Shown here in pieces: positions 154-18,814 of a DNA stretch of 29,616 nt (the stretch's first letter is position 1; every line of letters begins with the position of its first letter). Location of the stretch: positions 1 through 29,616 of IMG/VR virus record IMGVR_UViG_3300020438_000006, one strand, 5' to 3'. Both the position numbers and the translations under genes were made by a program. This stretch comes from a virus. The notes under the pieces were generated by a model. That model searched no databases, was not told the DNA's origin, and saw only the letters and a list, made by a program, of their open reading frames with translations.

Positions 154-193
154 GGGACTGTTTGCTAAATAACTTTGGCTCAGTCCCTTTTTT
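154..193 (+). terminator. Rho-independent terminator before the tail operon
   Basis: GGGACTG (154-160) and CAGTCCC (181-187) form a perfect 7-bp stem, followed by six T at 188-193. The 20-nt loop is larger than usual. It ends transcription from the terminase side or the candidate RNA before the tail operon begins. Confidence 0.85.
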
Positions 194-212: not shown

Positions 213-237
213 ACAAATTGCTAAAAATTATATTTAT
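213..237 (+). promoter_or_regulatory. Copy 1 of the ACAAA-N11-TATATTTAT motif
   Basis: ACAAA at 213-217 and TATATTTAT at 229-237 are separated by exactly 11 bases. It lies between the terminator and the ATG at 243. TATATTTA resembles the Bacteroidota -7 box TAnnTTTG with the last G changed to A. If it is a promoter, transcription would start at or next to the start codon of the tail chaperone gene. Confidence 0.6.
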
Positions 238-242
238 AAGTA

Positions 243-833
243 ATGAAAGAAGTTAAATTAACTATTCCGAATAAATGGGAAGACATAACAATAAGTGTTT
301 ACCAGAAGTATATAAAAGTTCAGGGATCTAAAATTGACGAAAGAAAAAAGATTATAAATAGTATTGCGTTATTATGTAATACGACTGAGACAATAGTAAA
401 ACAAATGAATTTTAAAGATCTTAAAGATATTGTTAAAATTATTAAAGAATTAGTTGACACTGAGCCAAATAAGATGATGTTTAAAAAACGTTTTAAATTT
501 GATAATGAAGATTATGGATTTATACCTAATTTATCTAAACTGACAACGGGAGAATATATTGATTTAGAAAACTATTGCAAAGAACCAATTGAAAATTTGC
601 ACGTAATTATGTCTATTCTTTACAGGAAGATTACATTTAAAAGGGGGGAACGTTATGCTATTGAGGATTACGATCCGGATCAATTTAAGGAAGAATTATT
701 TAAAAGTTGTCCAATGGATATAGCGTTATCAAGCTTAGGTTTTTTTTTGACTTTAGGAGAAAAATTAGTAAAGATTTCTCACAATTATTTGAAAAAACAG
801 AACAAGAAAATACAGATAAAAAAGGTTCTGTAA
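243..833 (+). CDS. Tail assembly chaperone (gpG-like, zero-frame product)
   Basis: This is a 196-residue, mainly helical protein. The pattern GFIPNLSKLTTGEYIDLENY (residues 92-111), then an LYRKI segment and ERYAIEDY, matches a chaperone type I recall from Bacteroidota siphoviruses; this is memory, not a search. Such proteins bind the tape measure while the tail tube assembles and are absent from the virion. The 3' end carries a -1 frameshift site: T TTT TTG at 743-749 in correct phase, a 7-nt spacer, and a GAGAAA/TTTCTC hairpin at 757-780. A slip joins residues 1-169 to the 749-1000 frame, like lambda gpG and gpGT. It is the first gene of the tail operon, just after motif copy 1. Confidence 0.75.
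   Translation: MKEVKLTIPNKWEDITISVYQKYIKVQGSKIDERKKIINSIALLCNTTETIVKQMNFKDLKDIVKIIKELVDTEPNKMMFKKRFKFDNEDYGFIPNLSKLTTGEYIDLENYCKEPIENLHVIMSILYRKITFKRGERYAIEDYDPDQFKEELFKSCPMDIALSSLGFFLTLGEKLVKISHNYLKKQNKKIQIKKVL
743..780 (+). promoter_or_regulatory. Programmed -1 ribosomal frameshift site
   Basis: The heptamer TTTTTTG at 743-749 is in the required X XXY YYZ phase relative to the gene that starts at 243. It is followed by seven spacer bases (750-756) and then a hairpin with arms GAGAAA (757-762) and TTTCTC (775-780) and a 12-nt loop. Spacer length and geometry are canonical for -1 frameshifting. The -1 frame stays open to the stop at 998-1000. Confidence 0.7.
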
Positions 834-1000
834 ATATGGAAAGCAAATGGGGTTGGTATAATATATTATACGGATTATCAAACAGTATTTTAGATATTGA
901 AAAAATAGTAAAAAAACCGATTTTAGAAGTGCTTACTTATTTAGCTTTTACTCAGGATCACAACAATACAAATAATAATAATTATGATAAATTACAATAA
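749..1000 (+). CDS. Frameshifted tail chaperone extension (gpT-like domain)
   Basis: This 83-residue extension is reached by a -1 slip at 743-749, giving a fused protein of about 252 residues. Its conserved-looking core is ESKWGWYNILYGLSNSILD, then a short helical segment (KPILEVLTYLAF), a layout I recall for T-type domains of Bacteroidota tail chaperones. The last residues are an Asn-rich low-complexity tail. An ATG at 836, just after the zero-frame stop at 833, could alternatively start a separate 54-residue protein. I prefer the frameshift because a complete frameshift signal is present. It overlaps the next gene (start 984) by 17 bases. Confidence 0.65.
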   Translation, partial: DFRRKISKDFSQLFEKTEQENTDKKGSVNMESKWGWYNILYGLSNSILDIEKIVKKPILEVLTYLAFTQDHNNTNNNNYDKLQ

Positions 1001-1526
1001 AATAGTTCAGAATTTTAGGGAAGCAACAAAAGCGTTAAGAAATCCTCAAGCTTTTTTTTGCGGTCAATTATCCGAAGTAGACATAAATAAATTAGGCGCT
1101 AAACATTATCCGTTAGTTTATCTTGAACCGGGCAACGTTAATATAGACACCGGAACAATGACTTATTCGTTCACTGTTTACGTATTAGAACAGACATTAA
1201 ACGAAGATATTGAAAAGCAAGATTTTTTTGAAGGCGTTGTAAATAATTTTGAAGATAAAAGAGATGCAGTTGGAGACACTTATAATTTCACTTTAAACAT
1301 TTTAAAAGACTTAATAAGCACGTTTAAACAAAATCTAAGCGATGTTGTAGGAAATCCGGCTTATCCTGTTGACGTTTTGGATAAAGAAATGATAATTCAA
1401 ATTCCTATAAACGCACAACCTATCACAATGCAATTTGATAATGTGTTAAGTGGATGGACTGCCGAAATACAAGTATTAGTAAATAATAAAAACAATTTGT
1501 GCACAGCACCTATTTATTCGGTTTAA
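984..1526 (+). CDS. Probable tail completion/terminator protein
   Basis: This 180-residue protein mixes helix and beta segments. Residues 1-50 hold a helix followed by a KHYPLVYLEPGNV-type strand. The middle contains GTMTYSFTVYVLEQ, and the C-terminus is beta-rich. This resembles small proteins that cap the tail or join it to the head in siphoviruses, and it sits next to an HK97 gp10-like gene, as such proteins often do. There is no catalytic motif, signal peptide or membrane segment. The start overlaps the frameshifted chaperone product by 17 bases. The functional call rests mainly on size and position. Confidence 0.45.
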   Translation: MINYNKIVQNFREATKALRNPQAFFCGQLSEVDINKLGAKHYPLVYLEPGNVNIDTGTMTYSFTVYVLEQTLNEDIEKQDFFEGVVNNFEDKRDAVGDTYNFTLNILKDLISTFKQNLSDVVGNPAYPVDVLDKEMIIQIPINAQPITMQFDNVLSGWTAEIQVLVNNKNNLCTAPIYSV

Positions 1527-1528
1527 TA

Positions 1529-2122
1529 ATGAGTAAATTAATTCAAGTATTACAAGATTTAGGAAAAACTGTTGTTGATAAATCCAGAAGAAATTTAGTC
1601 ACGGCAAAACCTTATAGCAAAAAAACAAGCCGTAATACTTTATATGATGGTATTCAATATAACGTAAAAGGAGGTCAAAAGGGAGTTGAATTAGAATGGA
1701 GTTTTGGAGGCGCTGAGGATTATTGGCAATTCGTAGATCAGGGAGTTAGAGGATCGGGAAAGTCAGTTGGAGGAACTGCAAAATCAGGTAAACAGGCTAA
1801 ACGTGGAGGAACGGGAACATTACGAGCAATTAAAAGTCCTTTTAAATTTAAAGACAAAATGCCTCCCAGAAGATTTATTGACAAATGGATTGTTAGCAAA
1901 CCATTAAAACAGGCTCGGAATTCTAAAGGACAATTTATAACTCGTAAATCTATGGCTTATTTAATACAAAGATCAATTTTTAGAAAGGGACTTTATAGAA
2001 CATTATTTTTTACAAAACCTTATGAACAAGAAGTAAAGGCATTTATGCCTAAAATTATAGACGCTTATGCTGATGAGTTGTTAGAATCATTAGATAAATC
2101 ATTAAATACAGAATTATTATGA
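1529..2122 (+). CDS. HK97 gp10-like neck/tail completion protein
   Basis: The protein has 197 residues from the ATG at 1529. An upstream in-frame ATG at 1499 lies inside the previous gene and is less likely. The N-terminus has a helix (VLQDLGKTVVDKSRRNL), then a basic segment, an LYDGIQYNV strand, and YWQFVDQGVRG, which resembles the W-x-FVD-x-G core of HK97 gp10-like proteins. These connect the portal/adaptor ring to the tail. A Gly/Lys-rich linker near residues 75-100 is probably flexible. The C-terminal third is helical. It overlaps the following gene by four bases (ATGA), which suggests coupled translation. Confidence 0.6.
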   Translation: MSKLIQVLQDLGKTVVDKSRRNLVTAKPYSKKTSRNTLYDGIQYNVKGGQKGVELEWSFGGAEDYWQFVDQGVRGSGKSVGGTAKSGKQAKRGGTGTLRAIKSPFKFKDKMPPRRFIDKWIVSKPLKQARNSKGQFITRKSMAYLIQRSIFRKGLYRTLFFTKPYEQEVKAFMPKIIDAYADELLESLDKSLNTELL

Positions 2123-3591
2123 GCATATTATTTGAACAAAAACCTGTAAACAGTGGCGATAAAGTCCCTGTAATAACTAATTGGAATCCTGTTATTGGAT
2201 ATATGGTAATTCAGAATTCAAGCATTGCAGGATTTTTTTATTATAAACTGATTTTAGAAATAAAAATAAATGATAATAACGGAACTTTATTAGGTAAAAT
2301 TAAACAACGTAGAAACGGTTATTCTGTTGATATAAATAACAATAATGCAAGAGCATTTTTTGATTTAAAAAAGATTGTAAACAGTCAATTAACTAATACC
2401 ATATTTGATCAGAATATAGCCGGACAACCATTTCAAACAATTCATAAACTTTGTGCTAATACCGGTGTTGGCTCTACAACCTCTGATTATTATTCTGTTA
2501 GTGGAGACAAAAGAACAGACAAAACACAAATAACTAAAATTTTTGTAAAAGCTTATCAAGAATACTCAGTTAACGCAAATCAAGTACCAACAGAAAATAC
2601 AGGAAGCACCGCAACAAATACACGGTTTTACCTTAAGGCGTCTTTACCTTTATTGACTCAACGAGATACAGATCCATTATTTATACAAGGAACGGCGTTT
2701 CAAAAATATCAAGCAAGTTCATCTTCTGATCTATTTTTAAGCGATTTAATTAAACAAAATTCTAAATATAATTCAGCTAAAGTTTATAGGACAAAAATTA
2801 GAGATGACGATTTTCATACTGTTGCGTTTTTAAATGATAACGGTAATTTTGATAGTGAAATTGATAAAATTAATATAATATATTATTCGAATTTAGGAGT
2901 AGCATTATCATCTACAACCATAACAAATTCAACAACTTATGGTGGTTATGATCCGGTTTCTGTTAACGATGATTTGGATAATGATCCATATAGATTGTTA
3001 TATTTCGGATGCGGAACGGCTAACCTTGAAGCCGGTTCAAACGTTGTTGCACGTCCGTCTAATGCCTCTAATAATGGTTGGGTTAGATACACAATACAAG
3101 GTTTTGAATCTGGAGGATCTGCAAGAACAGATGTTTACGAATTTGAAAGAGATAATTGCAGAATAAAAGGATTCAAAACAAGGAGATTAGCTTGGGTTAA
3201 TACTGTTGGAGGTTATGATTATTTTAATTTTACTTGTAAATCAACTGAGAAATTAAATGTTAAAAGAGATACTTATTCAACTTTAATGGGTTATTACAGT
3301 TCAAGTAAATTTTTCTATAACAACACACAAAGAGGAAAGACCGTTAGAAGCACAGAAGCAACGCTTACAGAGACTTTAAGGACTGATTGGATAAGTGAGG
3401 AAGATGCAGTATTATTACAAAGCCTAATGAAGTCTAACGAAGTTCAGGTTGTTCAAAATACTGATACAGAATTCACGCAGGGAGTGAATGTTGTTGATAC
3501 TAATTTTACAGTTAAGACACAGGCAAACGATAAATTAATTCAATATACAATTCAAATAGAATACGCTAATAACATAAATACTAATTCATAA
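2119..3591 (+). CDS. Tail/baseplate structural protein
   Basis: This 490-residue protein is rich in Asn, Ser, Thr and Tyr and dominated by predicted beta strands, as expected for a phage tail or baseplate component. The most distinctive stretch is near residues 355-375, RRLAWVNTVGGYDYFNF, a pattern I recall from tail proteins of Bacteroidota phages. There is no enzyme motif, signal peptide or coiled coil. It lies between the neck protein and the very large tail protein, overlapping neighbours by four and one bases. By position it could be the distal tail or upper baseplate protein. I cannot name a closer homologue. Confidence 0.55.
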   Translation: MSILFEQKPVNSGDKVPVITNWNPVIGYMVIQNSSIAGFFYYKLILEIKINDNNGTLLGKIKQRRNGYSVDINNNNARAFFDLKKIVNSQLTNTIFDQNIAGQPFQTIHKLCANTGVGSTTSDYYSVSGDKRTDKTQITKIFVKAYQEYSVNANQVPTENTGSTATNTRFYLKASLPLLTQRDTDPLFIQGTAFQKYQASSSSDLFLSDLIKQNSKYNSAKVYRTKIRDDDFHTVAFLNDNGNFDSEIDKINIIYYSNLGVALSSTTITNSTTYGGYDPVSVNDDLDNDPYRLLYFGCGTANLEAGSNVVARPSNASNNGWVRYTIQGFESGGSARTDVYEFERDNCRIKGFKTRRLAWVNTVGGYDYFNFTCKSTEKLNVKRDTYSTLMGYYSSSKFFYNNTQRGKTVRSTEATLTETLRTDWISEEDAVLLQSLMKSNEVQVVQNTDTEFTQGVNVVDTNFTVKTQANDKLIQYTIQIEYANNINTNS

Positions 3592-6500
3592 TGGAAGTTA
3601 GATTAGTCGCATATAGGAAAGCAACAAGTTCTTCAACTCAGGATAGCACGTATAATTTAGACTTGCAAGAATCTCCCAATATAAGTTTAAATTTCCAATT
3701 TGCTGACATTAAAGAACCTGAGAAAAGGAAAGGGAGTTTTAGCCAAACATTTAAATTACCATTCACAGATAATAATAACGAGTTTTTCCAAAATTGGTAT
3801 AATGTTAATTTAGAAACATTAGTATTTAGTACACGTACTAAATTTGATGCCGTTTTATTTGTAGGTACAACACCACAGTTTGAGGGAACAATACAATTAA
3901 AATCTATATATAAAAAAGCTGAATTATATGAAGTTATTTTATTATCTAATACGGCTACTTTATTTAGTGTTATTGGAGACAACCGTTTGAAAGATGTTTT
4001 TTTAGAAGATGATGGAAGTTATTCGGGAGATTTTAACCACGTTTACGACAATACGACTTTAAGCAATAGTTGGAATAATACGCTTCAAAACACTTCCGGA
4101 ACAACATTAACTAATAACGGAATCACTCAAATTGTATATCCTTTTTCCGTGACTCAGCCGGGTTTTTATTATCCAACTAATGATCGTTATTTAAGAATGA
4201 GTCAATCCGATATAACTACTTTAGGATATTCAAGTGCTTCAAATTATACAGTTAATTTATCTCAATTTAGACCTGCAATTCAAATAAGAACATTGTTTGA
4301 AAGAATTATTGCAAGATCTGGTTTTAGTTATACGTCTTCTTTTTTAGATAGTGATTATTTTAGTAAAATCTATATGACAACGGCAAATCATATTGAAGCT
4401 GCTGCATTACCTACTACAAATGCAAATACTGCTCCAAGTGGTCTTATGTATGTTGGTAATACAGATAATTGGGGGGAAATCTTGATTCCGGGAACAACTT
4501 ATATTTGTCCGGATGAAATTATGCCTTGTCCAGTTAATCTCCCAATAACCACTCTTGGCGTCCCTTATGATTCAGATCAAATTTGGAATACAACAAACCA
4601 TTTCTTTACTAAAGAGGCTTTTGATATGGCGAGTATAGAAATTTATAACTATGTTTTTTGGAATAATGTTAGAAATATATCTCCATACACTTCAGGTCTT
4701 TGGATAGGTTTGCAAAAATGGGACAACGATCCCACTTCTCCAACTTATAATTCATTAGTAGATGAATTTTACGGTTCAACTAATGTTGAAATTGGTAATT
4801 TATGGTCAGATGGTACGGGAAATGCAGGTTCGTATGGAATGACTAATACAGTATCTTTAGAAAATATGCCTGTTGGCGCTTCTGCGTGTGTTGTGTTTCG
4901 TTTATATTATGTTGAACGTGTTAGCTCGGCTTTTAATGGAGTTGTAAGATTGGGACAAATAGGAACACAAACTTTTACTGCATCTGCAATAATAAATTGG
5001 ATGGGTTATTCAACTAACGTTTACGGTGCAACTGTTGATATTCCATCTTGCATTGATCCTGATTTAAAACAAAAGGATTTTTTAAAAGATATAATTGAAA
5101 GATTTAATTTAGTGGTTGTAACCGATCCAGATAACGATTCTAACTTAATTATAGAACCTTACAACGATTATCTCGCATTAGGTAGTATAAAGCGTTGGAC
5201 AGATAAATTGGACACGTCTAAAGAGATAATAATAAAAGACACCACGGAATTACAAAAAAAGATAGTTCATTTATCAGACCAAGAGGACGTTGATTTAAAT
5301 AACGCAGTATTAAAAGAACGTTATCCAGATGTTAACGTTTTTGGTCATATAAGAATTCAAGATGATACTAACGAATTTGCAAAAGGAGAATTAAAAAACA
5401 ATTCAATTTTCAGTCCTTTTATTAACGATCAAATTTATAAATCAGCTAGTCAATCCGGCGCATCTTTATTAGCTAATTTTACTGTTCAATATGAATTTGG
5501 TTATGAATCTAATGAAAATGATGGTAATAATGTAGTTAAAAAAACCAAACCTAAATTATTCTATTACTCAGGAACTCCCGTTTCAGTAAAAGACGCAGCA
5601 GATAATACAACAACATATTATTTACACAATCATAATTCAACTGCAGAAATAATAACGGCTTATTCTTATAATGAATATCCTGTTTGCAGTCCTTTTGACG
5701 TACCGGGAACAACAGATACTTATTCGTTAAATGCTGACACTGTTAGCCTTTATTGGAATTCAACACCTCCTTTAAACGGAACTAATTTAATTTTTAACAA
5801 TGGAGATACACAGGGAAATTGGTTTAATGGTTCTTTATATGGTAAGTATTGGAAATCTTATTTAAATGAAATTTATAGCGATAATGCACGAATAATGGAG
5901 GCGTTCGTAAATTTAGATGCATACGACATATTTGATTTTAAATTTAACGATGAAATTTTTATAAAAGATACTTATTGGAGGATTTTAAAAATACAAAATT
6001 ATCAAGTTAATGGTAATGCTTCTACTAAAATAACATTTATTAAATCTTTAGACACTAAAGAAAATTGTACTGATTGCGATTATGTTTTAGGTTATGTGGG
6101 TGGTATTTCTGGAGGATTAAATTTTATTGGTGACGCAACAACGGGTTATGGTGCTTATGTTTGGTGTCCTGATGATGATCCAACTTGCTCACCAACATTA
6201 ACAGGAACTCAAATAAGCTTATACACTCAACCGGCTTGTTGCGATTGTAACGGAGGTTTTATATTATGGAATCAAACAACATATGCAGACCAAAATTTAT
6301 ATCCTTGTATGACTTATGCGGGAAGTCCTCCGGCTAAAATAACTAACAAACAAGGTGTTTTATCAATATGGAAAACACAGAATTTGAAAGGATTATTAAC
6401 GGGAATTTTAGGAGTAAAAGAAAAACCGTTTGTTATTGGAAGCGATAATACAAAATACAGTAGAGAAATTTTGCCTTATATGAAAGACGATCAAGTTATT

Positions 6501-7049
6501 AAATATAACGTCAAAAACAGGTTAATGCCTTATTTAGAGGGAGAAAGTCATAAAGTTATATTAATGGGAAATACTGTTGGATCAAATAAAAATTATGCTT
6601 ATCCAAGAGGCGAAAAGGGGGAAGAATCATTAAAAATTCCTCCTAATGTAAATATAATTATAAGAGTAAAAGGATTAGCAACGGTAATAGGTGGCAAAAA
6701 TGCATCTTATCCATTAGGAAGCACTGAGGGAATCGGATATTATACTGCGTTTAAAGTAGATGGAGCAACACCAACTCAATTAGGTACTATTGGAGGAACT
6801 GTTGATTTCAGTTTAAAAGAAGCAGGATTATTAAGCGTATGTTCATTATATATTGATATTAATCAGGGAGTTTTACGATTTGGAATTCAAGATTCACAAA
6901 ATGACACAAACCGAGTTTGGGAGTTATCTGCTGAAATAGACATAAACAGAATTTATAATATAGGAATTGCACACGATGAAAATTGGGCGTTATTCCAAAA
7001 TGGACAAAGAATACAATTTGAAAACGGAGATTATTTAATATGGAATTAA
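3591..7049 (+). CDS. Very large tail-tip/baseplate hub protein with LamG-like C-terminus
   Basis: This is the longest gene, 1152 residues. The N-terminal 140 residues contain ADIKEPEKRKGSFSQTFKLP, a start I recall for baseplate proteins of Bacteroidota siphoviruses. The middle is mostly beta, with a helical stretch ending in the QDDTNEFAKGELKNN region near residue 600. Around residues 840-930 lies a Cys-rich segment (CTDCD, CPDDDPTC, ACCDC) that could bind metal or form disulfides. The last 110 residues look like a concanavalin/LamG-type jelly roll, often used for glycan contact. I infer a tail-tip hub that may carry the receptor-binding part. It overlaps the next small gene by 10 bases. Confidence 0.55.
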   Translation: MEVRLVAYRKATSSSTQDSTYNLDLQESPNISLNFQFADIKEPEKRKGSFSQTFKLPFTDNNNEFFQNWYNVNLETLVFSTRTKFDAVLFVGTTPQFEGTIQLKSIYKKAELYEVILLSNTATLFSVIGDNRLKDVFLEDDGSYSGDFNHVYDNTTLSNSWNNTLQNTSGTTLTNNGITQIVYPFSVTQPGFYYPTNDRYLRMSQSDITTLGYSSASNYTVNLSQFRPAIQIRTLFERIIARSGFSYTSSFLDSDYFSKIYMTTANHIEAAALPTTNANTAPSGLMYVGNTDNWGEILIPGTTYICPDEIMPCPVNLPITTLGVPYDSDQIWNTTNHFFTKEAFDMASIEIYNYVFWNNVRNISPYTSGLWIGLQKWDNDPTSPTYNSLVDEFYGSTNVEIGNLWSDGTGNAGSYGMTNTVSLENMPVGASACVVFRLYYVERVSSAFNGVVRLGQIGTQTFTASAIINWMGYSTNVYGATVDIPSCIDPDLKQKDFLKDIIERFNLVVVTDPDNDSNLIIEPYNDYLALGSIKRWTDKLDTSKEIIIKDTTELQKKIVHLSDQEDVDLNNAVLKERYPDVNVFGHIRIQDDTNEFAKGELKNNSIFSPFINDQIYKSASQSGASLLANFTVQYEFGYESNENDGNNVVKKTKPKLFYYSGTPVSVKDAADNTTTYYLHNHNSTAEIITAYSYNEYPVCSPFDVPGTTDTYSLNADTVSLYWNSTPPLNGTNLIFNNGDTQGNWFNGSLYGKYWKSYLNEIYSDNARIMEAFVNLDAYDIFDFKFNDEIFIKDTYWRILKIQNYQVNGNASTKITFIKSLDTKENCTDCDYVLGYVGGISGGLNFIGDATTGYGAYVWCPDDDPTCSPTLTGTQISLYTQPACCDCNGGFILWNQTTYADQNLYPCMTYAGSPPAKITNKQGVLSIWKTQNLKGLLTGILGVKEKPFVIGSDNTKYSREILPYMKDDQVIKYNVKNRLMPYLEGESHKVILMGNTVGSNKNYAYPRGEKGEESLKIPPNVNIIIRVKGLATVIGGKNASYPLGSTEGIGYYTAFKVDGATPTQLGTIGGTVDFSLKEAGLLSVCSLYIDINQGVLRFGIQDSQNDTNRVWELSAEIDINRIYNIGIAHDENWALFQNGQRIQFENGDYLIWN

Positions 7050-7213
7050 AAAATTATATAGAAGATTCAGCGAAGTTTATTACAAAATCAATAGATCATT
7101 TGCAATTAGTAGATTATAAAGATAAAAACCTTGATTTTGAATATGGATTAGAAGAATATCACACAAGTTTTAGGAGATTGTTTAAACAAATAATAAGAAT
7201 AATTTTAAGATAA
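7040..7213 (+). CDS. Small tail-module protein, function unknown
   Basis: This 57-residue protein begins inside the end of the hub gene and shares its final A (TAATG) with the tape measure start. It has an acidic helical middle and a very basic, hydrophobic C-terminus (FRRLFKQIIRIILR) that could be an amphipathic helix. No family was recognised. Placement between hub and tape measure, with overlaps on both sides, suggests a translated gene of the tail operon. Confidence 0.55.
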   Translation: MELKNYIEDSAKFITKSIDHLQLVDYKDKNLDFEYGLEEYHTSFRRLFKQIIRIILR

Positions 7214-8970
7214 TGACAGTAACAAAAAAAATTATATTAGACGTTGAGACTAAAGGTGCTCAAAAAAACGTAAAAAAATTAGATAAAGGCATAAAAGATA
7301 CTGCAAAATCATCTAAAGGCGCTGAAAAGGGTTTAAAAGGAATGACGGGAGGAACTAAAGCGTTAGGATTAGGATTTAAAGCGTTGGGAATAGGATTAAT
7401 TATTAGCGCATTTATGAAGCTAAAAGATTTATTTAGTGGTAATATAGAAACGGCAAGGAAATTTGAAGTTATGGGTGCCAAAATATCTGCAATGTTTGAT
7501 GTATTGAGGGACAGAATTGAACCTTTATTTATGTCATTAAGTAAATTATTTACAGATCCTTTAGGAAGTTTAGAAACCTTTGCAAACGCTATTAAAGAGA
7601 ATTTAATAAATAGAGTAAAAGCCTTAGTTGACACATTTGGTGCATTAGGAAAAGTAGTGAAAGGAGTTTTTACAAGAGATATGGATTTATTAAAAGAGGG
7701 TGTAAATCAAGCTAAAGATTCTTTTGTTCAATTATCAACAGGATTAGACGATGTTCAACAATCTAAAGTGGCTGAAACTTTTAAATCTATTACAAAAGAG
7801 ATAAAAGAAGAAACAAAAGCCGTTGGAGATTTAACAGAAGCTTTACAAAATGTACGAGACAGGGAGAGAGATATGCTAACAGTTAGGGCAGATGCAAATA
7901 AATTAATTGCTCAAAGTAGATTATTAGCAGAAGATGAATCTAAGTCAATGGAAGAAAGATTAGTTGCCTTAAAAGCTGCGGTTGCAGAAGAACAAAGAGT
8001 AGCGTCAATTGAGATGTCTATACAAGAAGATAAAGTTAATGCATTACAAGAGATAATTGACTTAGGTAAATCAAGTGAGGAAGATATGCAAAACCTTGCT
8101 GCTGAAAAAGCTAGATTAACAGAATTAGAAACGGCTTCAATATTAAAACAAAAACGAGTTGTAACAGAAATTGTTACGTTTGAAAAACAAATAGATACTG
8201 AAAAAAAGAAAATAGCAAAAGCCGAATTAGATCGTCAAAATTTATTGCTTCAAACAAGAGAATTAAATTTAGAAATTACAGAAGAATTAACAGACAAAGA
8301 ACTTGAAGCGTTAATAAAAGCTGAGGAAAAAAGGCTTGGAGTAATAGACGCTAATTCAAAGAAAGAAAAAGAGTTAAAAGAAAAGCAGATTGAGGACGTT
8401 AAAAAGATGGAATTAGAATCTGCAATGAATATAATGGGGAGTTTAGCTCAATTAGGACAACAAAAATTATCTGATGAAAAAAAGGCTTTACAAAAACAAT
8501 TAGATGCGGGTTTAATATCACAAAAAGAATTTGACAAAGAATCTGCTAAAATTGAAAAAGAATCAGTTAAAAGAGAAAAAAAGAATGCAATGTTAAATAT
8601 ATTAATTAGCACGGCACAAGGTATTGCGGGTGCAATTAAAGCCGGTGCGGGACTTACATTTCCGGCAAATTTAGGTGCAATTGCTTCCGGAGTTGCAGCA
8701 GTTTTAGCCGGTATAGTTAATGCAAAAGCCGTATTAAGCAAAGTTCCCGGAGATGGAGGAAGCGCAGACATTGACGCAGGTACAACGGGAGGAGATGATT
8801 CAGTTGAAGAACCTGAGGTTGGAGGAATTCAAGGAATTGCAAGTACCTTATTACCAAATATAAATAATACAAATACCGATCAACAACCAATACAAGCTTA
8901 TGTAATTGAAAATGATATTTCAGATGCACAAGCTTTGCAAGAAGAATTAGAAATACAAGCCACGTTATAA
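7213..8970 (+). CDS. Tape measure protein
   Basis: This 585-residue protein has the typical layout: a basic N-terminus, a Gly/Leu-rich hydrophobic segment near residues 50-72 (GLGFKALGIGLIISAF), a long charged coiled coil from about 190 to 460, and a second hydrophobic Ala/Gly segment at about 460-510. The tape measure sets tail length and enters the host envelope during DNA injection. At about 0.15 nm per residue the tail would be near 85-90 nm; this is an estimate. No lytic transglycosylase or peptidase domain is visible. It is well separated from the chaperone gene, whereas the two are usually adjacent. Confidence 0.85.
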   Translation: MTVTKKIILDVETKGAQKNVKKLDKGIKDTAKSSKGAEKGLKGMTGGTKALGLGFKALGIGLIISAFMKLKDLFSGNIETARKFEVMGAKISAMFDVLRDRIEPLFMSLSKLFTDPLGSLETFANAIKENLINRVKALVDTFGALGKVVKGVFTRDMDLLKEGVNQAKDSFVQLSTGLDDVQQSKVAETFKSITKEIKEETKAVGDLTEALQNVRDRERDMLTVRADANKLIAQSRLLAEDESKSMEERLVALKAAVAEEQRVASIEMSIQEDKVNALQEIIDLGKSSEEDMQNLAAEKARLTELETASILKQKRVVTEIVTFEKQIDTEKKKIAKAELDRQNLLLQTRELNLEITEELTDKELEALIKAEEKRLGVIDANSKKEKELKEKQIEDVKKMELESAMNIMGSLAQLGQQKLSDEKKALQKQLDAGLISQKEFDKESAKIEKESVKREKKNAMLNILISTAQGIAGAIKAGAGLTFPANLGAIASGVAAVLAGIVNAKAVLSKVPGDGGSADIDAGTTGGDDSVEEPEVGGIQGIASTLLPNINNTNTDQQPIQAYVIENDISDAQALQEELEIQATL

Positions 8971-8995
8971 ACAAAAACACTAATTTTATATTTAT
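8971..8995 (+). promoter_or_regulatory. Copy 2 of the ACAAA-N11-TATATTTAT motif
   Basis: ACAAA at 8971-8975 and TATATTTAT at 8987-8995 have the same 11-base gap as copy 1. The motif starts directly after the tape measure stop and ends five bases before the ATG at 9000. It probably drives the head module independently of the tail operon. Confidence 0.6.
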
Positions 8996-8999
8996 GAGT

Positions 9000-9992
9000 A
9001 TGAAAAAGAAAAAACTAATTGAATTAATTATAGATGAATCTGCTGATATGTTCGGAGTAGAAGCAATTTCGGTCGTTAAATATCCGGCGATAGAAGAAAA
9101 CTTTGTTTTTTTCAATAATGATTTTTTATCACTTGCAAAAGTAGATGAAGAAAAAAAACAACTTATTGGCGCAGTCCTTATTCCAGATAAAAAAATCAAC
9201 CGTTATGATAAAGAGACTAACGAAGAATATGACGTTTATTTTACTAAAGACACTATAAAAAAGGCTCAGAGTTTATTTATGTCAAGCCTAAGAAACAATA
9301 ATCACACCTTGGAACACCAAGAGCAAGTTGATGGATTAAGTGTTGTAGAATCTTGGATTAAAGAGGATGAAAAATTTGATAAGTCTAATTTATGGGGATT
9401 TAAAAATATGCCCGTTGGAACGTGGTTTGTACAAGTTAGTGCGGAGGGAAACGATGATATTTGGGATAAAATTAAGAATAAAGAAGTGAGAGGATTTTCA
9501 ATTGAGGGTTGGTTTACTGATAAACTAATTGAAGCTTCTAAACAAAAAGATATATTAGACGAAGTTTGTGAAGACTGTCCGGACGAAATCACACTAAGCA
9601 AAATAAAAGATCTTATATTAGAAAATGAATTAACACCGGTTGCAGAATTAGACGGAGAACCATTATTTAGAACTAAAGAAGAAGCCAACATTTATGCGGA
9701 AATGTTTAAAGGTTGTAAAGGAAGCCACAAGCATATAATGGACGGTAATTTATTTTATATGGCTTGTGAAGATCACGCAACTTCTACTACAAAAGAAGAA
9801 TATAATGAAACAGGCAAAAGAAAATATAAAAGAAAATATAAACAATTAGAATATGTTTCTTTTATTAAAAAACAAGCTTTATTAAAATATCCTTGGGATC
9901 AGTGTATGCGAGATATGATAAAAGAATATGGCAACAAAGAAACGGCTGCAAAAGTTTGTTCAGCAATAAAAAATAAGACCGTAAACCGATAG
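9000..9992 (+). CDS. XkdF-like head maturation protease
   Basis: The protein has 330 residues from the ATG at 9000. The ATG at 8994 overlaps the motif box, so I prefer 9000. The N-terminal domain (GVEAISVVKYPAIEENF, then QLIGAVLIPDKKI, HTLEHQEQVDG and EVRGFSIEGWF) matches the XkdF-type putative serine protease of PBSX-like phages. His and Ser residues in the HTLEHQ and GFSIEG segments are plausible catalytic residues. The C-terminus has a GCKGSHKH segment and a CMRDMIKEYG domain that I recall in Bacteroidota homologues. The expected role is to cut scaffold and capsid protein during head assembly; the scaffold and capsid genes follow directly. Confidence 0.7.
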   Translation: MKKKKLIELIIDESADMFGVEAISVVKYPAIEENFVFFNNDFLSLAKVDEEKKQLIGAVLIPDKKINRYDKETNEEYDVYFTKDTIKKAQSLFMSSLRNNNHTLEHQEQVDGLSVVESWIKEDEKFDKSNLWGFKNMPVGTWFVQVSAEGNDDIWDKIKNKEVRGFSIEGWFTDKLIEASKQKDILDEVCEDCPDEITLSKIKDLILENELTPVAELDGEPLFRTKEEANIYAEMFKGCKGSHKHIMDGNLFYMACEDHATSTTKEEYNETGKRKYKRKYKQLEYVSFIKKQALLKYPWDQCMRDMIKEYGNKETAAKVCSAIKNKTVNR

Positions 9993-10000
9993 ACATTTAA

Positions 10001-10025
10001 ACAAAAACTAACAAATTATATTTAT
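10001..10025 (+). promoter_or_regulatory. Copy 3 of the ACAAA-N11-TATATTTAT motif
   Basis: ACAAA at 10001-10005 and TATATTTAT at 10017-10025 are again 11 bases apart. The upstream context TTTAAACAAAA is shared with copy 4. It ends seven bases before the ATG at 10033. Confidence 0.6.
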
Positions 10026-10032
10026 TAATGAT

Positions 10033-10662
10033 ATGAAGACAATAGACAAAATCTTAAACCTTTTAAAAATGAACGAAAAATCAAAATCTTATAGCGTTAA
10101 ATTTTACGCTGAAATGAACTTAGACGATGGACGAGTAATTGCAACAGAAGATGAACAATTTATGATTGGATCAAGAGTATTCGCAATTGGAGATGATGGA
10201 GAGGCAGAAGCTTTAACGTCCGGAGAATATACAATGGAAAATGGTAATAAAATGTCTGTTGATTCAGATTCTAAAATTACTGATTTAGGAGAAGAAGCCG
10301 AATCAGTAGAAAAAGAAAATGAAGAAGAAGAACTTGCCGTTGATGATGGTAAAGAAGCTGACGTTGATGATTGGGCAGGGATGGAAAAAAGAATCCAGAA
10401 TCTTGAAGATGCCGTTGCTGATCTTAAAGCTGATAAAGTAGAAGCGTCAAAAGAAGAAAAAACAGAAATGTCAACAGATGTTATTGGCGAATTAATGACA
10501 CAAGTTGAAGAATTAAATAATAAAATCACTGAATTAAGCGAAGAACCGGCATCGGAAACTTTAAAATACAATCCGGAGGGCGAAACAACTAATTCAACAA
10601 TAGATTTGACCAAACTGTCATCAATGGAGAGGGCAGCGTATTACATAAATAACCTAAAATAA
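10033..10662 (+). CDS. Probable scaffolding protein
   Basis: This 209-residue, strongly acidic protein lies between the protease and the major capsid genes, the usual scaffold position. Residues 20-75 form a small domain with repeated DDG/EDE strands (LDDGRVIATEDEQFMIG). A Glu/Asp-rich linker follows, then a coiled coil at about 115-170 (MEKRIQNLEDAVADLKADK). The C-terminus (SSMERAAYYINNLK) is helical and may bind capsid protein. An ATG at 10028 ends after two codons and is not the start. Function is inferred from position, charge and coiled coil, without a recognised family motif. Confidence 0.6.
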   Translation: MKTIDKILNLLKMNEKSKSYSVKFYAEMNLDDGRVIATEDEQFMIGSRVFAIGDDGEAEALTSGEYTMENGNKMSVDSDSKITDLGEEAESVEKENEEEELAVDDGKEADVDDWAGMEKRIQNLEDAVADLKADKVEASKEEKTEMSTDVIGELMTQVEELNNKITELSEEPASETLKYNPEGETTNSTIDLTKLSSMERAAYYINNLK

Positions 10663-10673
10663 ATTTTAAAACG

Positions 10674-11687
10674 ATGAGCAATAAATTAAATAAAAAAAGA
10701 AACTTTGCAGATGATATTGTTATAACAGGCGATACATATGCAGGAATTCAGGCTTTGCCTTATGTGACGGCTGCAGTTAAATCTCCAGACACGGTTGCAA
10801 AAAATTATATTAGAACAATAGATGGTTTAACTAAAAGCGCAGTTGTAAATAATGTAGGCACAACGGCATCTGGTGGTACAGGAATTATTCAACCGGGAGG
10901 AACAGGCGCAGCGTGTTCTTTTAATGCGGGAGACAATTTAGAAACCACTGAGCAAGTATTAACATTAATTGACCTTAAAGTTCAGGAACAAATTTGTCGT
11001 GCGACAGTTTTCCCAACTTGGATGGGTCAAGGGATGGACAGAAACGGAGATCTTCCAAACTCTTTTAGCGATTTCTTATTATCAACTGTTGCAGGCGCAG
11101 CCGGACAGATGTTAGAAAACTCTATTTGGTTAGGTAAATTTGACCAAACTAATAATTCAGTTGGATTTGTATCTAATGATGGTGTATTTGACCAAACAGG
11201 ATTAGACGCATCTGCTTGTAAAGATTTTGCACAAGTTGAAACTCTTGGTGCTGAAACAGGCGCAGGAACTTTAACATTCTTTGAAGATGTATTTAAGAAA
11301 ACTGCAGAAACTGTTCCGGGCATTATGTCTAAACCGGGTTTTGGGTTCTATGTTGGAAATCAAATTTACTCTTTATATTTATCAGGTCTTGCACAAGCAG
11401 GTGGTAATGGAATGGGAAATATGGTGACTAATCAAGCTATTAATATGCCAACTTATTTAGGTTATCCCGTTTATTTATGTCCGGGTATGCCTTCAAAATG
11501 TATCGTTGCAACTTATAAAGATAATCTTATTTTTGGAAGTAATTTAGCAACTGATTATACTGAGGCTCAACTTATCCCAACTTATCAATATGATGGTTCA
11601 GACAATGTAAGAATTGGAATGAAATTTGCAGTTGGTGTTCAAGTTGGAGTTGCAACAGACGGTGTTGTTGGTAAAAACTTAGTATAA
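10674..11687 (+). CDS. Major capsid protein (HK97 fold)
   Basis: The 337-residue protein follows the protease and scaffold genes. Its C-terminal stretch NVRIGMKFAVGVQVGVATDG has the alternating pattern expected for the A-domain/P-domain end of HK97-fold capsid proteins, and GYPVYLCPGMP is the usual loop-strand before it. The N-terminus is basic and probably removed or moved during maturation. Clean codon use, lack of overlaps and a hairpin right after the stop fit a highly expressed structural gene. I see no evidence for a fused decoration domain. Confidence 0.8.
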   Translation: MSNKLNKKRNFADDIVITGDTYAGIQALPYVTAAVKSPDTVAKNYIRTIDGLTKSAVVNNVGTTASGGTGIIQPGGTGAACSFNAGDNLETTEQVLTLIDLKVQEQICRATVFPTWMGQGMDRNGDLPNSFSDFLLSTVAGAAGQMLENSIWLGKFDQTNNSVGFVSNDGVFDQTGLDASACKDFAQVETLGAETGAGTLTFFEDVFKKTAETVPGIMSKPGFGFYVGNQIYSLYLSGLAQAGGNGMGNMVTNQAINMPTYLGYPVYLCPGMPSKCIVATYKDNLIFGSNLATDYTEAQLIPTYQYDGSDNVRIGMKFAVGVQVGVATDGVVGKNLV

Positions 11688-11696
11688 ACATTTTAT

Positions 11697-11730
11697 AAAG
11701 GGGGTTGAAAATACTCCCTTTTAACTTTTT
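11697..11730 (+). terminator. Hairpin after the capsid gene, possibly a partial terminator
   Basis: AAAGGGGG (11697-11704) pairs with CTCCCTTT (11714-11721), including one G-T wobble, with a 9-nt loop. The following TTAACTTTTT tract is interrupted. It may reduce rather than stop transcription, giving more capsid than downstream mRNA, or protect the 3' end. Confidence 0.55.
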
Positions 11731-11745
11731 AATAACATAATAATT

Positions 11746-12366
11746 ATGAGTTGTACATTAACAAAAGGCTTTAGCGTTGACTGTCAAGATTCTATTGGAG
11801 GATTAAAAGCAGTTTACCTATGCAAAGAATACGTTTCAAATATGCGTTCTGCAGCCGATTTCAACGCAACTGATCCTTTACAAATGGACACAGGGGGATT
11901 TACAGCGTGGATTGATTCAGCAGGAACGTCAGTATCAACACCGACTTGTTTTAGATATTTACTAAGACCGGGTGCAAGTAATTTGAATACTACAATTAAC
12001 GCTTCATCTGAAAACGGAACAACATTTTTTACACAAACATTATCTTTAACATTACCAAAATTAAGCGTAAAACAAACAAATGAAATAAAACTTATTTGTC
12101 AATCACGTGTTCAAGTATGGGTTCAAGATAATATGGATAATATGTTCCTGATCGGTATGGATAACGGGTGCGAAACTACGGGAGGAACAGTTGTAACCGG
12201 CGCTGCACGTGGCGATATGTCAGGATTTACGTTAACAATGGTTGGAGAAGAATTAGAACCAATGATTTGGTTAGATCGGTCAATAGGTGGAACGACTCCA
12301 TCTGCGTTGCAAGTACCGTTTAACGGCTTGTCTGATGCCTCAGGGTTGACAGTCACGGCAGGATAA
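11746..12366 (+). CDS. Probable major tail tube protein
   Basis: This 206-residue protein is predicted to be mostly beta. The pattern fits tail tube proteins: an N-terminal GGLKAVYLCKEYV strand, a central strand-rich region with LPKLSVKQTNEIKLI, then NMFLIGMDNGCETTGG, GAARGDMSGFTLTMVGEELE. The order 'iG-x-NG ... tG-x-x-GD-x-GftLt-x-GEE' is what I expect for the tube subunit. It lies directly after the capsid gene and before a strong terminator, so the two most abundant structural proteins share one short transcript. A head decoration role is an alternative. Confidence 0.55.
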   Translation: MSCTLTKGFSVDCQDSIGGLKAVYLCKEYVSNMRSAADFNATDPLQMDTGGFTAWIDSAGTSVSTPTCFRYLLRPGASNLNTTINASSENGTTFFTQTLSLTLPKLSVKQTNEIKLICQSRVQVWVQDNMDNMFLIGMDNGCETTGGTVVTGAARGDMSGFTLTMVGEELEPMIWLDRSIGGTTPSALQVPFNGLSDASGLTVTAG

Positions 12367-12391
12367 AACTATTCTTTTATATTACTGTAAG

Positions 12392-12420
12392 AAAAGGGCA
12401 CTAAATTGTGCCTTTTTTTT
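12392..12420 (+). terminator. Strong Rho-independent terminator after the tail tube gene
   Basis: AAAAGGGCAC (12392-12401) pairs with GTGCCTTTTT (12408-12417) around a 6-nt loop, with one G-T wobble, followed by a run of T to 12420. It closes the head transcript; motif copy 4 restarts transcription 12 bases downstream. Confidence 0.9.
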
Positions 12421-12431
12421 ATTATTTTTAA

Positions 12432-12456
12432 ACAAAATGTCAATTTTTATATTTAT
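12432..12456 (+). promoter_or_regulatory. Copy 4 of the ACAAA-N11-TATATTTAT motif
   Basis: ACAAA at 12432-12436 and TATATTTAT at 12448-12456 are 11 bases apart. The placement just after a strong terminator supports promoter function. The next ATG (12475) is 19 bases past the motif end, so this copy would give a short leader rather than a leaderless mRNA. Confidence 0.65.
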
Positions 12457-12474
12457 AGTAAAGAAACAACGATT

Positions 12475-13309: not shown

Positions 13310-15118
13310 ATGAAATTAAATTTTGTAGAATTATCACATTACAACATTCCTCATTTAGTTGAAAAAAATAATCAAGAATGGATTAGTTTTGGTAATGATA
13401 ATCTTTATCCTAATTATCTTTTAGATTTATTTTTAGGTTCAGCGATTAATGGTGCTTTAATAAAATCTATTGGCGCAATGATTTATGGCGAGGGACTTGC
13501 TGCAACTGACGCTGACGAATCAGAAGCTAAAAAAGAATCATATTTAAAATTAAATGGCTTATTGCACGATTCTCCGGATGACGTTTTAAAGGATTTAGCA
13601 ATGGATCTTAAATTATTTGGGGGGTGTTATGTGAATGTAATATGGAGTAGAGACAGAAAAAAAATAAGTAAAATTGCTCACATTGGCGCACAATACATTC
13701 GTTCTGGTAAACTGATTGACGGAGAAATACAAACATATTATTACAGTTCTGATTGGAGTAAATTTAAAAAAGCTGAACACAAGCCAAGACCGTATGCAGC
13801 TTTTAACGATAAAGACCGTACTCAAGCAAGTCAAATTTTAATGATTAGAGATAAAAACCCGGCTTTGTTTTATGGCTTTGCACCGGATTATGTAGCTTCA
13901 ACAGATTATATTCAGCTTGATTTAGAGATTGCACAATTCCATTTATCTAATATATCTAACGGAATGTTTCCGAGTATGGCAATAAATTTCTCTAATGGAG
14001 TACCAACAGAAGAAGAAAGAAGAATTGTTGAAAGACAGATACAAGACAAATTTAGTGGTTCGGGCAACAGTGGGCGCATCCTTATATCGTTTAATGATGG
14101 GAAAGAAACAACACCTGAAATTGTACCAATTAATACAAATGACGCTGCGGAAAGTTATCAATTTTTATCTAAAGAGGTTGTAAACAAAGTTCTTTCCGGG
14201 CATCGTGTAACAAGTCCTTTGTTATTTGGAATACGTGCTGAGGGTGGAGGATTAGGATCAAATGCCGATGAACTTAGAGATTCTTACAGTCTTTTTAATA
14301 ATACTGTAATAATACCGTTCCAAAACGTCCTTTTAAAAGGTCTAAGCAAGATTTTTAAAATTAATGATATAGACCTTGATTTGTACTTTAAAACGCTTAA
14401 ACCGGCTGATTTCATTGACTTGAATGTGACGGAAACACAAAGCGAAGAAGACCAAGAAAAAGAGGGCGTAACAAACGAAGAAGAATTTGTTGAAATGTCA
14501 GACGATGAAATGCACACTGTTTACGATGATTTAGAGGGAGAAATTATTGAGGATGAAAATTGGGAAATAGTGGAGGAAAGAGATCAAGGAACCGAAGAAC
14601 CTTACGAAGAATGGGCAAAAAGATTAATAAAAAACAATAAAAAAGAAGAATTAGCGCAAGATTATATTACAGATAAACCGAGTGGATTCAGTTATTTAGA
14701 TAAATCATTTTACAAAATACGTTTTAAATACGCAATTGGATCTTCTAAAGCGAGTTCATCATCAAGAACATTCTGTAAAAATATGATGTCAAGAACAAGC
14801 AGAAAAATTGTTTACAGAATAGAAGATATTGACAAAGCAAGTAGAGACGGAGTAAATAGACAGTTAGGACATAAGGGGAGAAAATACGATCTTTTCAAGT
14901 TCAAAGGAGGAATTTACTGCAGGCATAAATGGGTTGAAGTTTTATATAGACTTAAAAAGTCAACAACAGTTAAGAAAGGAGAAGAAATGCCTGAAAATAT
15001 AACCGATTATAAACGTGTTTCTTCAATACCTAAAACATATAAACCAAGTCCAAGAGGAATTAAAGAATCAAGAATAGCACCTGAAGATATGAAAGATAGA
15101 GGTGCTTACCCTAAATAA
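13310..15118 (+). CDS. Portal protein with long C-terminal extension
   Basis: Residues 1 to about 385 form a portal domain: NDNLYPNYLLDLFLGSAING, AMDLKLFGGCYVNV, then an LEIAQFHLSNISNGMFPS helix and GRILISFNDGKETTPEIVPI, ending with AESYQFLSKEVVNKVLSGHR and the DELRDSYSLFNNTVI helix. This fits the dodecameric portal through which DNA enters and leaves the head. The protein is long at 602 residues. An acidic linker (about 385-450) leads to a basic domain (about 465-550) with YKIRFKYA, RTFCKNMMSRT, KIVYRIEDID and YDLFKFKGGIYCRHKW. That domain resembles accessory domains fused to Bacteroidota portals, possibly a minor head or internal protein. No separate Mu gpF-like gene is seen. Confidence 0.75.
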   Translation: MKLNFVELSHYNIPHLVEKNNQEWISFGNDNLYPNYLLDLFLGSAINGALIKSIGAMIYGEGLAATDADESEAKKESYLKLNGLLHDSPDDVLKDLAMDLKLFGGCYVNVIWSRDRKKISKIAHIGAQYIRSGKLIDGEIQTYYYSSDWSKFKKAEHKPRPYAAFNDKDRTQASQILMIRDKNPALFYGFAPDYVASTDYIQLDLEIAQFHLSNISNGMFPSMAINFSNGVPTEEERRIVERQIQDKFSGSGNSGRILISFNDGKETTPEIVPINTNDAAESYQFLSKEVVNKVLSGHRVTSPLLFGIRAEGGGLGSNADELRDSYSLFNNTVIIPFQNVLLKGLSKIFKINDIDLDLYFKTLKPADFIDLNVTETQSEEDQEKEGVTNEEEFVEMSDDEMHTVYDDLEGEIIEDENWEIVEERDQGTEEPYEEWAKRLIKNNKKEELAQDYITDKPSGFSYLDKSFYKIRFKYAIGSSKASSSSRTFCKNMMSRTSRKIVYRIEDIDKASRDGVNRQLGHKGRKYDLFKFKGGIYCRHKWVEVLYRLKKSTTVKKGEEMPENITDYKRVSSIPKTYKPSPRGIKESRIAPEDMKDRGAYPK

Positions 15119-18802: not shown

Positions 18803-18814
18803 AATTATAGTATT

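Follow-up and report, generated by a model that had tools for sequence, protein, structure and literature searches.

According to the available parts of PMC8103513 and PMC6411747, ECF promoters carry AAC in the -35 element and CGT in the -10 element at a fixed spacing of about 17–18 bp, and those of sigmaH (GGAAYA ... GTT) have a rigid 17-bp spacer. Phage-encoded sigma factors are also described in the accessible sections of two further papers. Salmonella phage 7-11 has late promoters of the form GTAAtg-16-aCTA, which are used by the host core polymerase with the phage sigma factor SaPh711_gp47 (PMC8948821), and the middle/late promoters of phiEco32, tAATGTAtA, are read by phi32_gp36, which lacks region 4, so that these promoters have no -35 element (PMC8948821, PMC4331800). 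The primary promoter of Bacteroidota, as given in the part of PMC6847099 available, is TTTG-N19-TAnnTTTG.

The DNA described here (hereafter the window, i.e. the whole stretch of 29,616 nt analysed, positions 1 to 29,616 of IMG/VR record IMGVR_UViG_3300020438_000006) contains a bipartite element, ACAAA-N11-TATATTTAT. An exact scan of the whole window found exactly four copies, every one on the + strand, and these are the four that a preliminary description had placed at 213, 8971, 10001 and 12432 with an exact 11-base gap. The copies and the features discussed with them are as follows.

154..187, + strand: terminator-like hairpin 5' of copy 1 (7-bp stem, 20-nt loop, T run)
213..237, + strand: copy 1, exact match, ACAAA at 213-217 and TATATTTAT at 229-237, preceding the first tail-module gene (ATG 243)
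243..833, + strand: first tail-module gene, phrog_32199 (unknown function), E 6.3e-10, homologue in 29/29 genomes
8971..8995, + strand: copy 2, exact match, ACAAA at 8971-8975 and TATATTTAT at 8987-8995
9000..9992, + strand: head maturation protease-like gene, PF14550 Peptidase_S78_2, E 3.9e-17
10001..10025, + strand: copy 3, exact match, ACAAA at 10001-10005 and TATATTTAT at 10017-10025, preceding the scaffold-like gene (ATG 10033)
10033..10662, + strand: scaffold-like gene, labelled from its position only
from 10674: capsid-like gene, 3' of the scaffold-like gene
12387..12422, + strand: terminator-like hairpin 5' of copy 4 (hairpin scan)
12432..12456, + strand: copy 4, exact match, ACAAA at 12432-12436 and TATATTTAT at 12448-12456
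13310..15118, + strand: portal gene, PF04860 (E 4.4e-11) and phrog_33693 (E 2e-75)
18575-19480: HTH genes
22609..22634, + strand: weaker copy (1 mismatch, gap 12), within the gene 5' of the sigma-like gene
22745..23251, + strand: ECF-like sigma factor candidate, 168 aa (AlphaFold2 model, Foldseek and VIA matches)

Copy 2 directly follows the stop of the tape-measure-like gene and lies 5' of the protease gene, which likely starts at 9000 rather than at ATG 8994, a codon falling within the second box. Copy 4 precedes a 59-aa ORF (ATG 12475), the first of the portal operon, with the portal gene itself beginning at 13310. The genes behind the copies had been labelled chaperone, protease, scaffold and portal. 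The protease and portal labels agree with the Pfam matches above, whereas the other two could not be upheld: phrog_32199 was the sole match of the supposed chaperone and no search confirmed that function, and family searches gave no match for the gene at 10033..10662.

The preliminary description had also proposed an expected-count comparison in shuffled sequence. In 100 dinucleotide shuffles of the window, 0.01 exact copies were expected, as against 4 observed. Since the pattern at 3 or fewer mismatches was not enriched over the shuffles (44 observed vs 36.3 expected, with 9 of 100 shuffles reaching 44), the information is confined to the near-exact form. A comparison set was made up of the window and 28 related phage records. 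In these 29 genomes, exact copies with a gap of 11 numbered 55 forward and 0 reverse, those with a gap of 12 numbered 8 forward and 0 reverse, and gaps of 8–10 and 13–15 gave 0 to 1; at 1 or fewer mismatches there were 132 forward copies vs 5 reverse. Exact copies ranged from 0 to 5 per genome, the four of the window being a high number for the phage family. From 93 unique sites, the consensus could be broadened to approximately AACAA(A/T)-N8/9-TTTATATTTATAA. Both boxes are conserved and the sequence of the spacer is not; in the first box the frequencies were 92% for A(-1), 100% for A0 and 100% for C1, a conservation that is partly built in because the sites were picked at 2 or fewer mismatches. 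The position of the second box that corresponds to the last G of TAnnTTTG was A in all 93, and a G there would still have met the 2-mismatch limit. When the gap is 11, AAC and ATTTA are separated by N17.

A motif scan of related phages, likewise proposed beforehand, found the element at the same genes across the 29 genomes. Allowing 1 or fewer mismatches and a gap of 11 or 12, it was present before the first tail-module gene in 29/29 genomes, before the protease gene in 29/29 and, with an ATG nearby, before the portal operon in 26/29. The scaffold-like slot carried it in 10/29 genomes at this threshold and in 21/29 at 2 or fewer mismatches, the copy being absent (more than 2 mismatches) in 8/29. 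Only 1 of 529 other gene starts in the same genomes bore the element, and the terminase start had none in the 29/29 genomes examined. The distance from box to ATG varies by slot, from 4 to 19 bases. At the first slot, an ATG 5 bases past the box is the sole start candidate in 25/29 genomes, and in 2 others there is a second candidate beside it; at the protease slot, an ATG 4 nt past the box is the sole candidate in 12/29, again with 2 others in which it is one of a pair.

Sites of this kind were also recovered when IMG/VR was scanned with the DNA pattern only, using a wrong gap of 15 as the control. Among the matches listed, 59 of 119 loci carried at least 2 family proteins, vs 9 of 120 for the control, and an ATG lay 2–20 bases past the box in 65 of 69 family sites vs 1 of 9 control sites. 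The association with terminators that had been suggested holds for two copies in the window, which follow hairpins, but as a general rule it was not borne out in the relatives. With a simple hairpin finder, a hairpin was detected 5' of the element at the first slot in 2/29 genomes, at the protease slot in 2/29, at the scaffold slot in 0/21 and at the portal-operon slot in 16/26; over the window as a whole, the terminator scan showed no excess (8 found vs 7.9 in shuffles).

A protein of the type encoded at 22745-23251 is encoded in 29/29 genomes, and a homologue was found in 18/18 records of at least 25 kb that had been chosen by their portal. Its predicted fold resembles that of ECF sigma factors, with a putative sigma2-sigma4 architecture: the AlphaFold2 model (pLDDT 78) has two helical domains joined by a stretch of low confidence (80-99), and its best structural matches are SigL, sigmaE, AlgU and SigK. 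The whole chain matched with Z 9.8 at 20 A rmsd and residues 104-168 fit sigmaE region 4 bound to -35 DNA over 65 residues (2.3 A, Z 9.2), values to be read with the caution that for helical models a Z below about 13 can arise by chance. The best Foldseek E value was 0.01, with none below 0.001. The window protein reaches no curated Pfam sigma cut-off, and two of 19 orthologues gave matches, one to Sigma70_r4_2 (E 0.0023), the other to Sigma70_r2 (E 0.0095). A total of 282 sigma relatives were found, 80 of them being kept. A PDB search with the sigma alignment gave a UPF0122 protein as the best match (E 0.011), and cultured phages had no sequence match at E 0.1. In 84,980 genomes the search recovered a single weak relative (29% over about 109 residues), on a MAG contig with the title uncultured Sulfurovum; scanning the + strand of this contig revealed two 1-mismatch near-copies of the element, each preceding a gene (at 8068 and at 14826), and another near-copy at 5288.

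The cultured Nonlabens phage P12024S, a distant relative, has an annotated sigma-70 region 2 protein, P12024S_33, just 5' of its terminase region, a position comparable to that of the sigma candidate in the window family. Its late genes are preceded by an element, ACAAA-N14-CGTTAAT; in the form ACAAA-N13/14-CGTTAAT it is present in 6 forward and 0 reverse copies vs 0.02 expected, a count made in the same sequence in which the element had first been spotted by eye; it is absent from the annotation of the record. The two elements share the first box, the distance from AAC to TTA and a late-gene placement adjoining the ATG, and both fit AAC-N17-(A/C)(T/G)TTA, which corresponds to the geometry of ECF promoters. 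They differ in the second box, which is CGTTAATA in P12024S rather than TATATTTAT, and the sigma proteins have no detectable sequence similarity (hhalign probability 2%). The model obtained for the P12024S sigma was of low quality (pLDDT 61.6, mostly under 50 in the second half), with matches to SigH and others (best E 0.006) resting mainly on its first half. Among open-licence papers we found no description of either element, a weak indication that none exists.

The sequence itself shows the element with its rigid geometry, conserved gene context and strand bias, as well as the sigma candidate gene and its predicted fold. From these we infer that the element is a promoter, that the sigma candidate is its reader and where transcripts would start, the "late" timing following from the identity of the downstream genes. 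On this comparative evidence (same genes, same strand, rigid gap, unconserved spacer and a sigma-like gene throughout), which favours the phage-specific late promoter class initially suggested, the four elements are probably late promoters read by a phage ECF-like sigma factor and giving near-leaderless mRNAs, with a probability of about 0.8. The phage would make a two-domain ECF-like sigma from the middle-region gene 22745-23251, and this protein would associate with the core RNA polymerase of the host. In that complex, the C-terminal domain of the sigma would recognise AACAA in the manner of a -35 element, recognition and melting of the -10-like TATATTTAT would fall to its N-terminal domain, and the distance permitted between the boxes would be 11, sometimes 12 bases. 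In the ECF register, AAC would lie at -32 to -30 and T-9 would be the flipped base. Transcription is then predicted to start 4 to 7 bases past the second box, i.e. at the ATG or within a few bases of it in copies 1, 2 and 3, and 12 to 15 bases 5' of the ATG in copy 4. As the predicted starts fall at or near the ATG, most late mRNAs would have little or no leader. The proposed link between sigma and element is one of co-occurrence in one phage family.

Compared with ECF promoters, the element shares AAC in its first box, a rigid gap near 17–18 bp and TT at the predicted -10/-9, as does P12024S with its AAC and CGTT; it differs in the -10, which is TATATTTAT in the window family, with ATTTA and no CG. 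Because this -10 lacks the canonical CGT, the promoters are classed as ECF-like and not as canonical ECF. With phage 7-11 it shares a bipartite fixed-gap element 5' of late genes and a small number of copies, and would share a phage sigma with region 4, but the box sequences are different, phage and host are unrelated, and near-leaderless placement is unmentioned in the available sections of PMC8948821. With phiEco32 it would share the use of a phage sigma and host core for virion genes and an AT-rich -10-like element; phiEco32, however, has a single element without a -35, whereas in the window both elements are present and the sigma candidate has a predicted region 4.

The second box also resembles the primary promoter of Bacteroidota in its TAnnTTT portion, TATATTTA agreeing with TAnnTTTG at 7 of 8 positions, and it could be proposed that a host primary sigma of the sigma-ABfr type uses TATATTTA as its -7 box while a phage activator at ACAAA replaces the -33 contact. 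An activator that substitutes for a missing -33 contact would act much as in sigma appropriation. The predicted start would again be at the ATG, and in the part of PMC6847099 available the Flavobacterium johnsoniae -33 element is weak anyway. We consider this unlikely. The final G is nearly invariant in the host set of that paper (same sections) but is replaced by A at every one of the 93 unique sites; the upstream box lies elsewhere, none of the four copies having TTTG 19 bases 5' of the second box, in keeping with the earlier statement that the element is not the host promoter. Moreover, the phage carries its own two-domain sigma candidate, and CGTTAATA of P12024S is unlike TAnnTTTG yet lies at the same distance from AAC. 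A scan for TAHHTTTG gave 28 matches on both strands of the window, few with TTG 17-23 bases 5' and none among the four copies, and host promoters were rejected as the main explanation. An E. coli-type promoter scan of the window was uninformative (108 found vs 96.7 expected).

The constant proximity to start codons, with the first-slot ATG 5 bases past the box, would also suit a signal for translation initiation or RNA processing within the mRNA, particularly in a phylum with members that lack Shine-Dalgarno sequences (PMC6847099, available part). This is very improbable, and a translation signal was rejected because the distance to the ATG depends on the slot (4 to 19 bases) and other starts in the same genomes lack the element (1/529 with it); the element also follows terminators at some slots. 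We know of no ribosome signal built from two boxes that are separated by a fixed gap of 11 bases. Repetition, strand specificity and rigid spacing would equally suit a DNA-binding protein, and the phage has HTH genes (18575-19480), but a role as an operator or as another kind of protein-binding site, for a repressor or in replication or packaging, seems scarcely plausible for an element that is limited to the starts of virion gene groups and has no palindromic symmetry, the same genes showing no other visible promoter-like element.

If the late promoter reading is correct, a concrete late-gene switch and its probable reader can be named for a common uncultivated phage family, with the cultured pair of P12024S and its Nonlabens/Persicivirga host as a test system. 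Starts at the predicted positions would mean that leaderless late mRNAs are translated in bacteria not using Shine-Dalgarno sequences, and that the two box types show a phage sigma shifting its -10 preference with the -35 retained. We give roughly even odds to the broader proposal that the late promoters of this uncultivated, probably Bacteroidota-infecting phage family are of ECF type and welded to the start codon, with leaderless late mRNAs, and that the -35 AACAA and the geometry have been kept while the -10 switched between TATATTTAT and CGTTAATA with the sigma. If true, this would offer a set of natural variants for the sigma2 -10 code, together with a late programme of leaderless mRNAs in a phylum whose mapped mRNAs mostly have leaders, those of F. 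johnsoniae averaging 33 nt (PMC6847099, available part).

Near-exact copies, through which the sigma candidate might regulate its own gene, were also found near the sigma gene, before it in 8 genomes and inside it in 11 (19/29 in all, 10 having none). The copies before it are situated 110-115 bases upstream in conserved coding sequence, and the weaker copy at 22609..22634 of the window may be a coding coincidence; in relatives G042, G043, G048 and G049, the protein motif near the sigma gene is retained and the DNA is altered. A further 16 near-exact forward copies occur in 14 genomes, most within coding sequence and 8 of them being one recurrent coding stretch. Near-exact copies are thus also present at sites without an expected promoter. 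The gene at 23238-23600, in the neighbouring position where an ECF sigma factor would have its cognate anti-sigma, overlaps the stop of the sigma candidate and has homologues in 28/29 genomes.

Exactly four matches to the element ACAAA-N11-TATATTTAT are present in the window, a 29,616-base phage record from IMG/VR. Their positions, the genes behind them and the predicted transcription starts (see below) are as follows.

213, forward strand, exact copy; precedes a tail-module gene to which the searches assigned no function; predicted start at about 241-244 (ATG at 243)
8971, forward strand, exact copy; precedes the head maturation protease gene (PF14550); predicted start at about 8999-9002 (ATG at 9000)
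10001, forward strand, exact copy; precedes a gene without family matches, itself upstream of a capsid-like gene; predicted start at about 10029-10032 (ATG at 10033)
12432, forward strand, exact copy; precedes the small ORF opening the portal operon; predicted start at about 12460-12463 (ATG at 12475)

The four copies, which the preliminary description had reported and read as a phage-specific late promoter class, were borne out, 100 dinucleotide-preserving shuffles of the window giving a mean of 0.01 exact matches; with three mismatches allowed, the window showed no enrichment over the shuffles (44 matches versus 36.3 expected). The gene labels given there were confirmed for the protease but not for the supposed scaffold, a gene without hits, or the supposed chaperone. 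Other window genes encode a tape-measure protein (PHROG, E about 1e-4), an M15 peptidase and the small and large terminase subunits. We consider the copies to be promoters of virion genes (probability about 0.9), and the reader is probably an ECF-like sigma factor that the phage itself encodes.

A portal-protein search of IMG/VR gave 70 related loci (783 kb together), in which the exact element occurs 29 times on the forward and 0 times on the reverse strand, and the gap-12 form 7 and 0 times. In many of these relatives (loci L023, L026-L029, L043-L058 and others) the portal match spans about 2.1 kb and not 1.8 kb, which suggests an insertion in the protein. The sigma-like protein was searched for in 40 of the portal-chosen loci and was found in 26, including all 18 records of at least 25 kb. 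These 18, together with 10 more records of at least 25 kb picked by sigma homology (10 of 11 candidates), in which the presence of the sigma gene is not independent evidence, were analysed whole and oriented by the portal gene. With the window they make 29 genomes, which share gene content and order and differ in cut point.

Scanning the 29 genomes, as the preliminary description had proposed, gave 55 forward and 0 reverse exact copies at gap 11, in support of its reading. The exact boxes were found 8 times forward and 0 times reverse at gap 12, once at gap 13 (reverse), and on neither strand at gaps 8, 9, 10, 14 and 15. Single genomes contain between 0 (records G012 and G031) and 5 exact copies. 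With up to one mismatch, gaps 11 and 12 gave 132 forward and 5 reverse copies. Of the forward ones, 97 occupy one of the four slots or lie in the portal-operon region, 19 are within or close to the sigma gene, and 16 are at other places. Counting copies from -80 to +12 around the gene start, with up to one mismatch unless stated, the slots of the first tail-module gene and the protease are each filled in 29/29 genomes, that of the scaffold-like gene in 10/29 (21/29 at two mismatches), and that of the first portal-operon gene in 15 of the 16 genomes where tblastn located this small gene. If the portal-operon slot is instead defined by a copy at most 1,500 bases upstream of the portal gene that is followed by an ATG after 2-20 bases, it is filled in 26/29 genomes, the exceptions being records G005 (cut there), G029 (copy without a nearby ATG) and G041. 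Starts of 24 other genes had copies in 1/529 cases (13/529 at up to two mismatches). Extra near-exact copies lie in coding sequence upstream of the sigma-like gene in 8 genomes (in the window, 22609-22634) and inside it in 11. A near-copy, ACAAT...GATACTATATTTAT, recurs downstream of the portal region in the oriented records G009, G010, G021, G025, G026, G029, G033 and G039, in sequence that looks coding.

The consensus of 93 unique sites is AACAA(A/T), an unconserved stretch and TTTATATTTATAA, the conservation of the boxes being partly by construction (gap 11, up to two mismatches); all 93 have A where the host -7 element has a nearly invariant G. In the first slot an ATG lies 5 bases past the box, as the sole candidate in 25/29 genomes and one of two in 2; the distance is 4, 7 or 14 bases for the protease, 10 to 18 for the portal operon and 7 to 19 for the scaffold slot. 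Overlap between the first box and the preceding gene's stop codon (TAAACAA, TGAACAA) is common in the relatives, at the protease slot among others.

The DNA pattern AACAA-N12-TATATTTATAA was also scanned across all IMG/VR contigs, with the same boxes at gap 15 instead of 11 as a control. Each matched at least 120 stretches, and 119 and 120 loci, respectively, were examined among the matches listed. Among these, at least two proteins of the window's family were encoded in 59/119 loci (at least three in 55) with the right gap versus 9/120 (at least three in 7) with the wrong one. An ATG lay 2-20 bases past the box at 65/69 family sites versus 1/9 at gap 15, and at about a third of non-family sites (23/61 and 40/111), again among the matches listed. 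Remote loci are included, such as L337 (portal about 31% identical), which has three near-copies on a single strand.

The putative reader and an adjacent ORF are as follows.

22745-23251, 168-aa ORF, proposed ECF-like sigma factor
23238-23600, 120-aa ORF with four cysteines, overlapping the end of the sigma-like gene

Sequence matches of the former are weak (UPF0122, E 0.00048, under the cut-off; a phage sigma family, E 0.079), and among 19 orthologues Sigma70_r4_2 was matched by one, Sigma70_r2 by one and UPF0122 by three. In its AlphaFold2 model (pLDDT 78) a poorly predicted stretch (80-99) links two helical domains, and Foldseek against PDB placed the sigma factors SigL, SigK, sigmaE and AlgU at the top (probability about 1, E 0.01 to 0.1). 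In VIA-align the complete chain scored Z 9.8, its rmsd of 20 A being due to a different placement of the domains, and residues 104-168 scored Z 9.2 (2.3 A, 65 residues) on E. coli sigmaE region 4 with -35 DNA; the tool cautions that values of this size can arise by chance for helical models. Since the match list consists of sigma factors, we favour reading the model as a sigma factor. A deeper search found 282 sigma relatives in viral contigs; the 80 loci kept (593 kb), several of which overlap records already counted, contain 29 forward and 0 reverse exact copies, and 73 and 4 with one mismatch. The 120-aa ORF (phrog_32048, function not assigned) has homologues in 28/29 genomes and is a candidate sigma partner or anti-sigma factor. 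Farther along, at 24025-27878, genes for ParB_N, a TET/JBP-type 2-oxoglutarate dioxygenase (PF12851, E 1.6e-29) and GATase_6-like and AAA_33-like proteins (both just under their cut-offs) are grouped in what looks like a DNA-base modification cassette.

The cultured Nonlabens phage P12024S, whose portal is 30% identical to that of the window, points to a Bacteroidota host, this relation being the only basis. Its P12024S_33 (20595-21074), annotated as containing sigma-70 region 2 (PF04542, 25.2 bits, cut-off 24), lies between a VRR-NUC gene and the terminase, the same order as the window's (VRR-NUC-like 21950, sigma 22745, terminase 28218); profile comparison detected no similarity between the two sigma proteins. 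While inspecting its gene starts we noticed ACAAA-N13/14-CGTTAAT upstream of the genes at 3031, 5412, 21280, 23961, 25201 and 26802, and then counted it there (6 forward, 0 reverse, where a first-order Markov model predicts 0.02). A seventh site stands before 179 but lacks a good first box. Over these seven sites, the ATG lies 12 bases after the C of CGTTA at six and 11 at one. In seven contigs with relatives of the P12024S sigma, including the P12024L copy in IMG/VR, ACAAA-N14-CGTTA occurs 1 to 4 times forward per locus and 0 times reverse.

The elements of the window and P12024S share AAC-N17-(A/C)(T/G)TTA. According to PMC8103513, ECF promoters carry AAC / CGT; the sigmaH promoter, according to PMC6411747, has a -35 GGAAYA at -34 to -29 and a -10 of G-11 T-10 T-9, so that 18 bases separate Y-30 from G-11. 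The AAC and CGTT of P12024S land exactly on this geometry, and at its 12-base sites the A of ATG would be +1. Since the CGT feature at -10 is lacking in the window's family, we do not claim that its element is a canonical ECF promoter; in the way it works it would resemble the late promoters of phage 7-11 and of phiEco32 (PMC8948821). By the host or the sigmaH register, transcription in the window would start 4 to 7 bases past the second box, and we lean towards copies 1-3 being near-leaderless. In F. johnsoniae, leaders exceed 10 nt in 87% of predicted transcripts, according to PMC6847099. A remote sigma relative (29%) is encoded in locus L275 (MAG contig CACVAR010000201.1, titled uncultured Sulfurovum), which has near-copies before the genes at 8068 and 14826 and may be misbinned.
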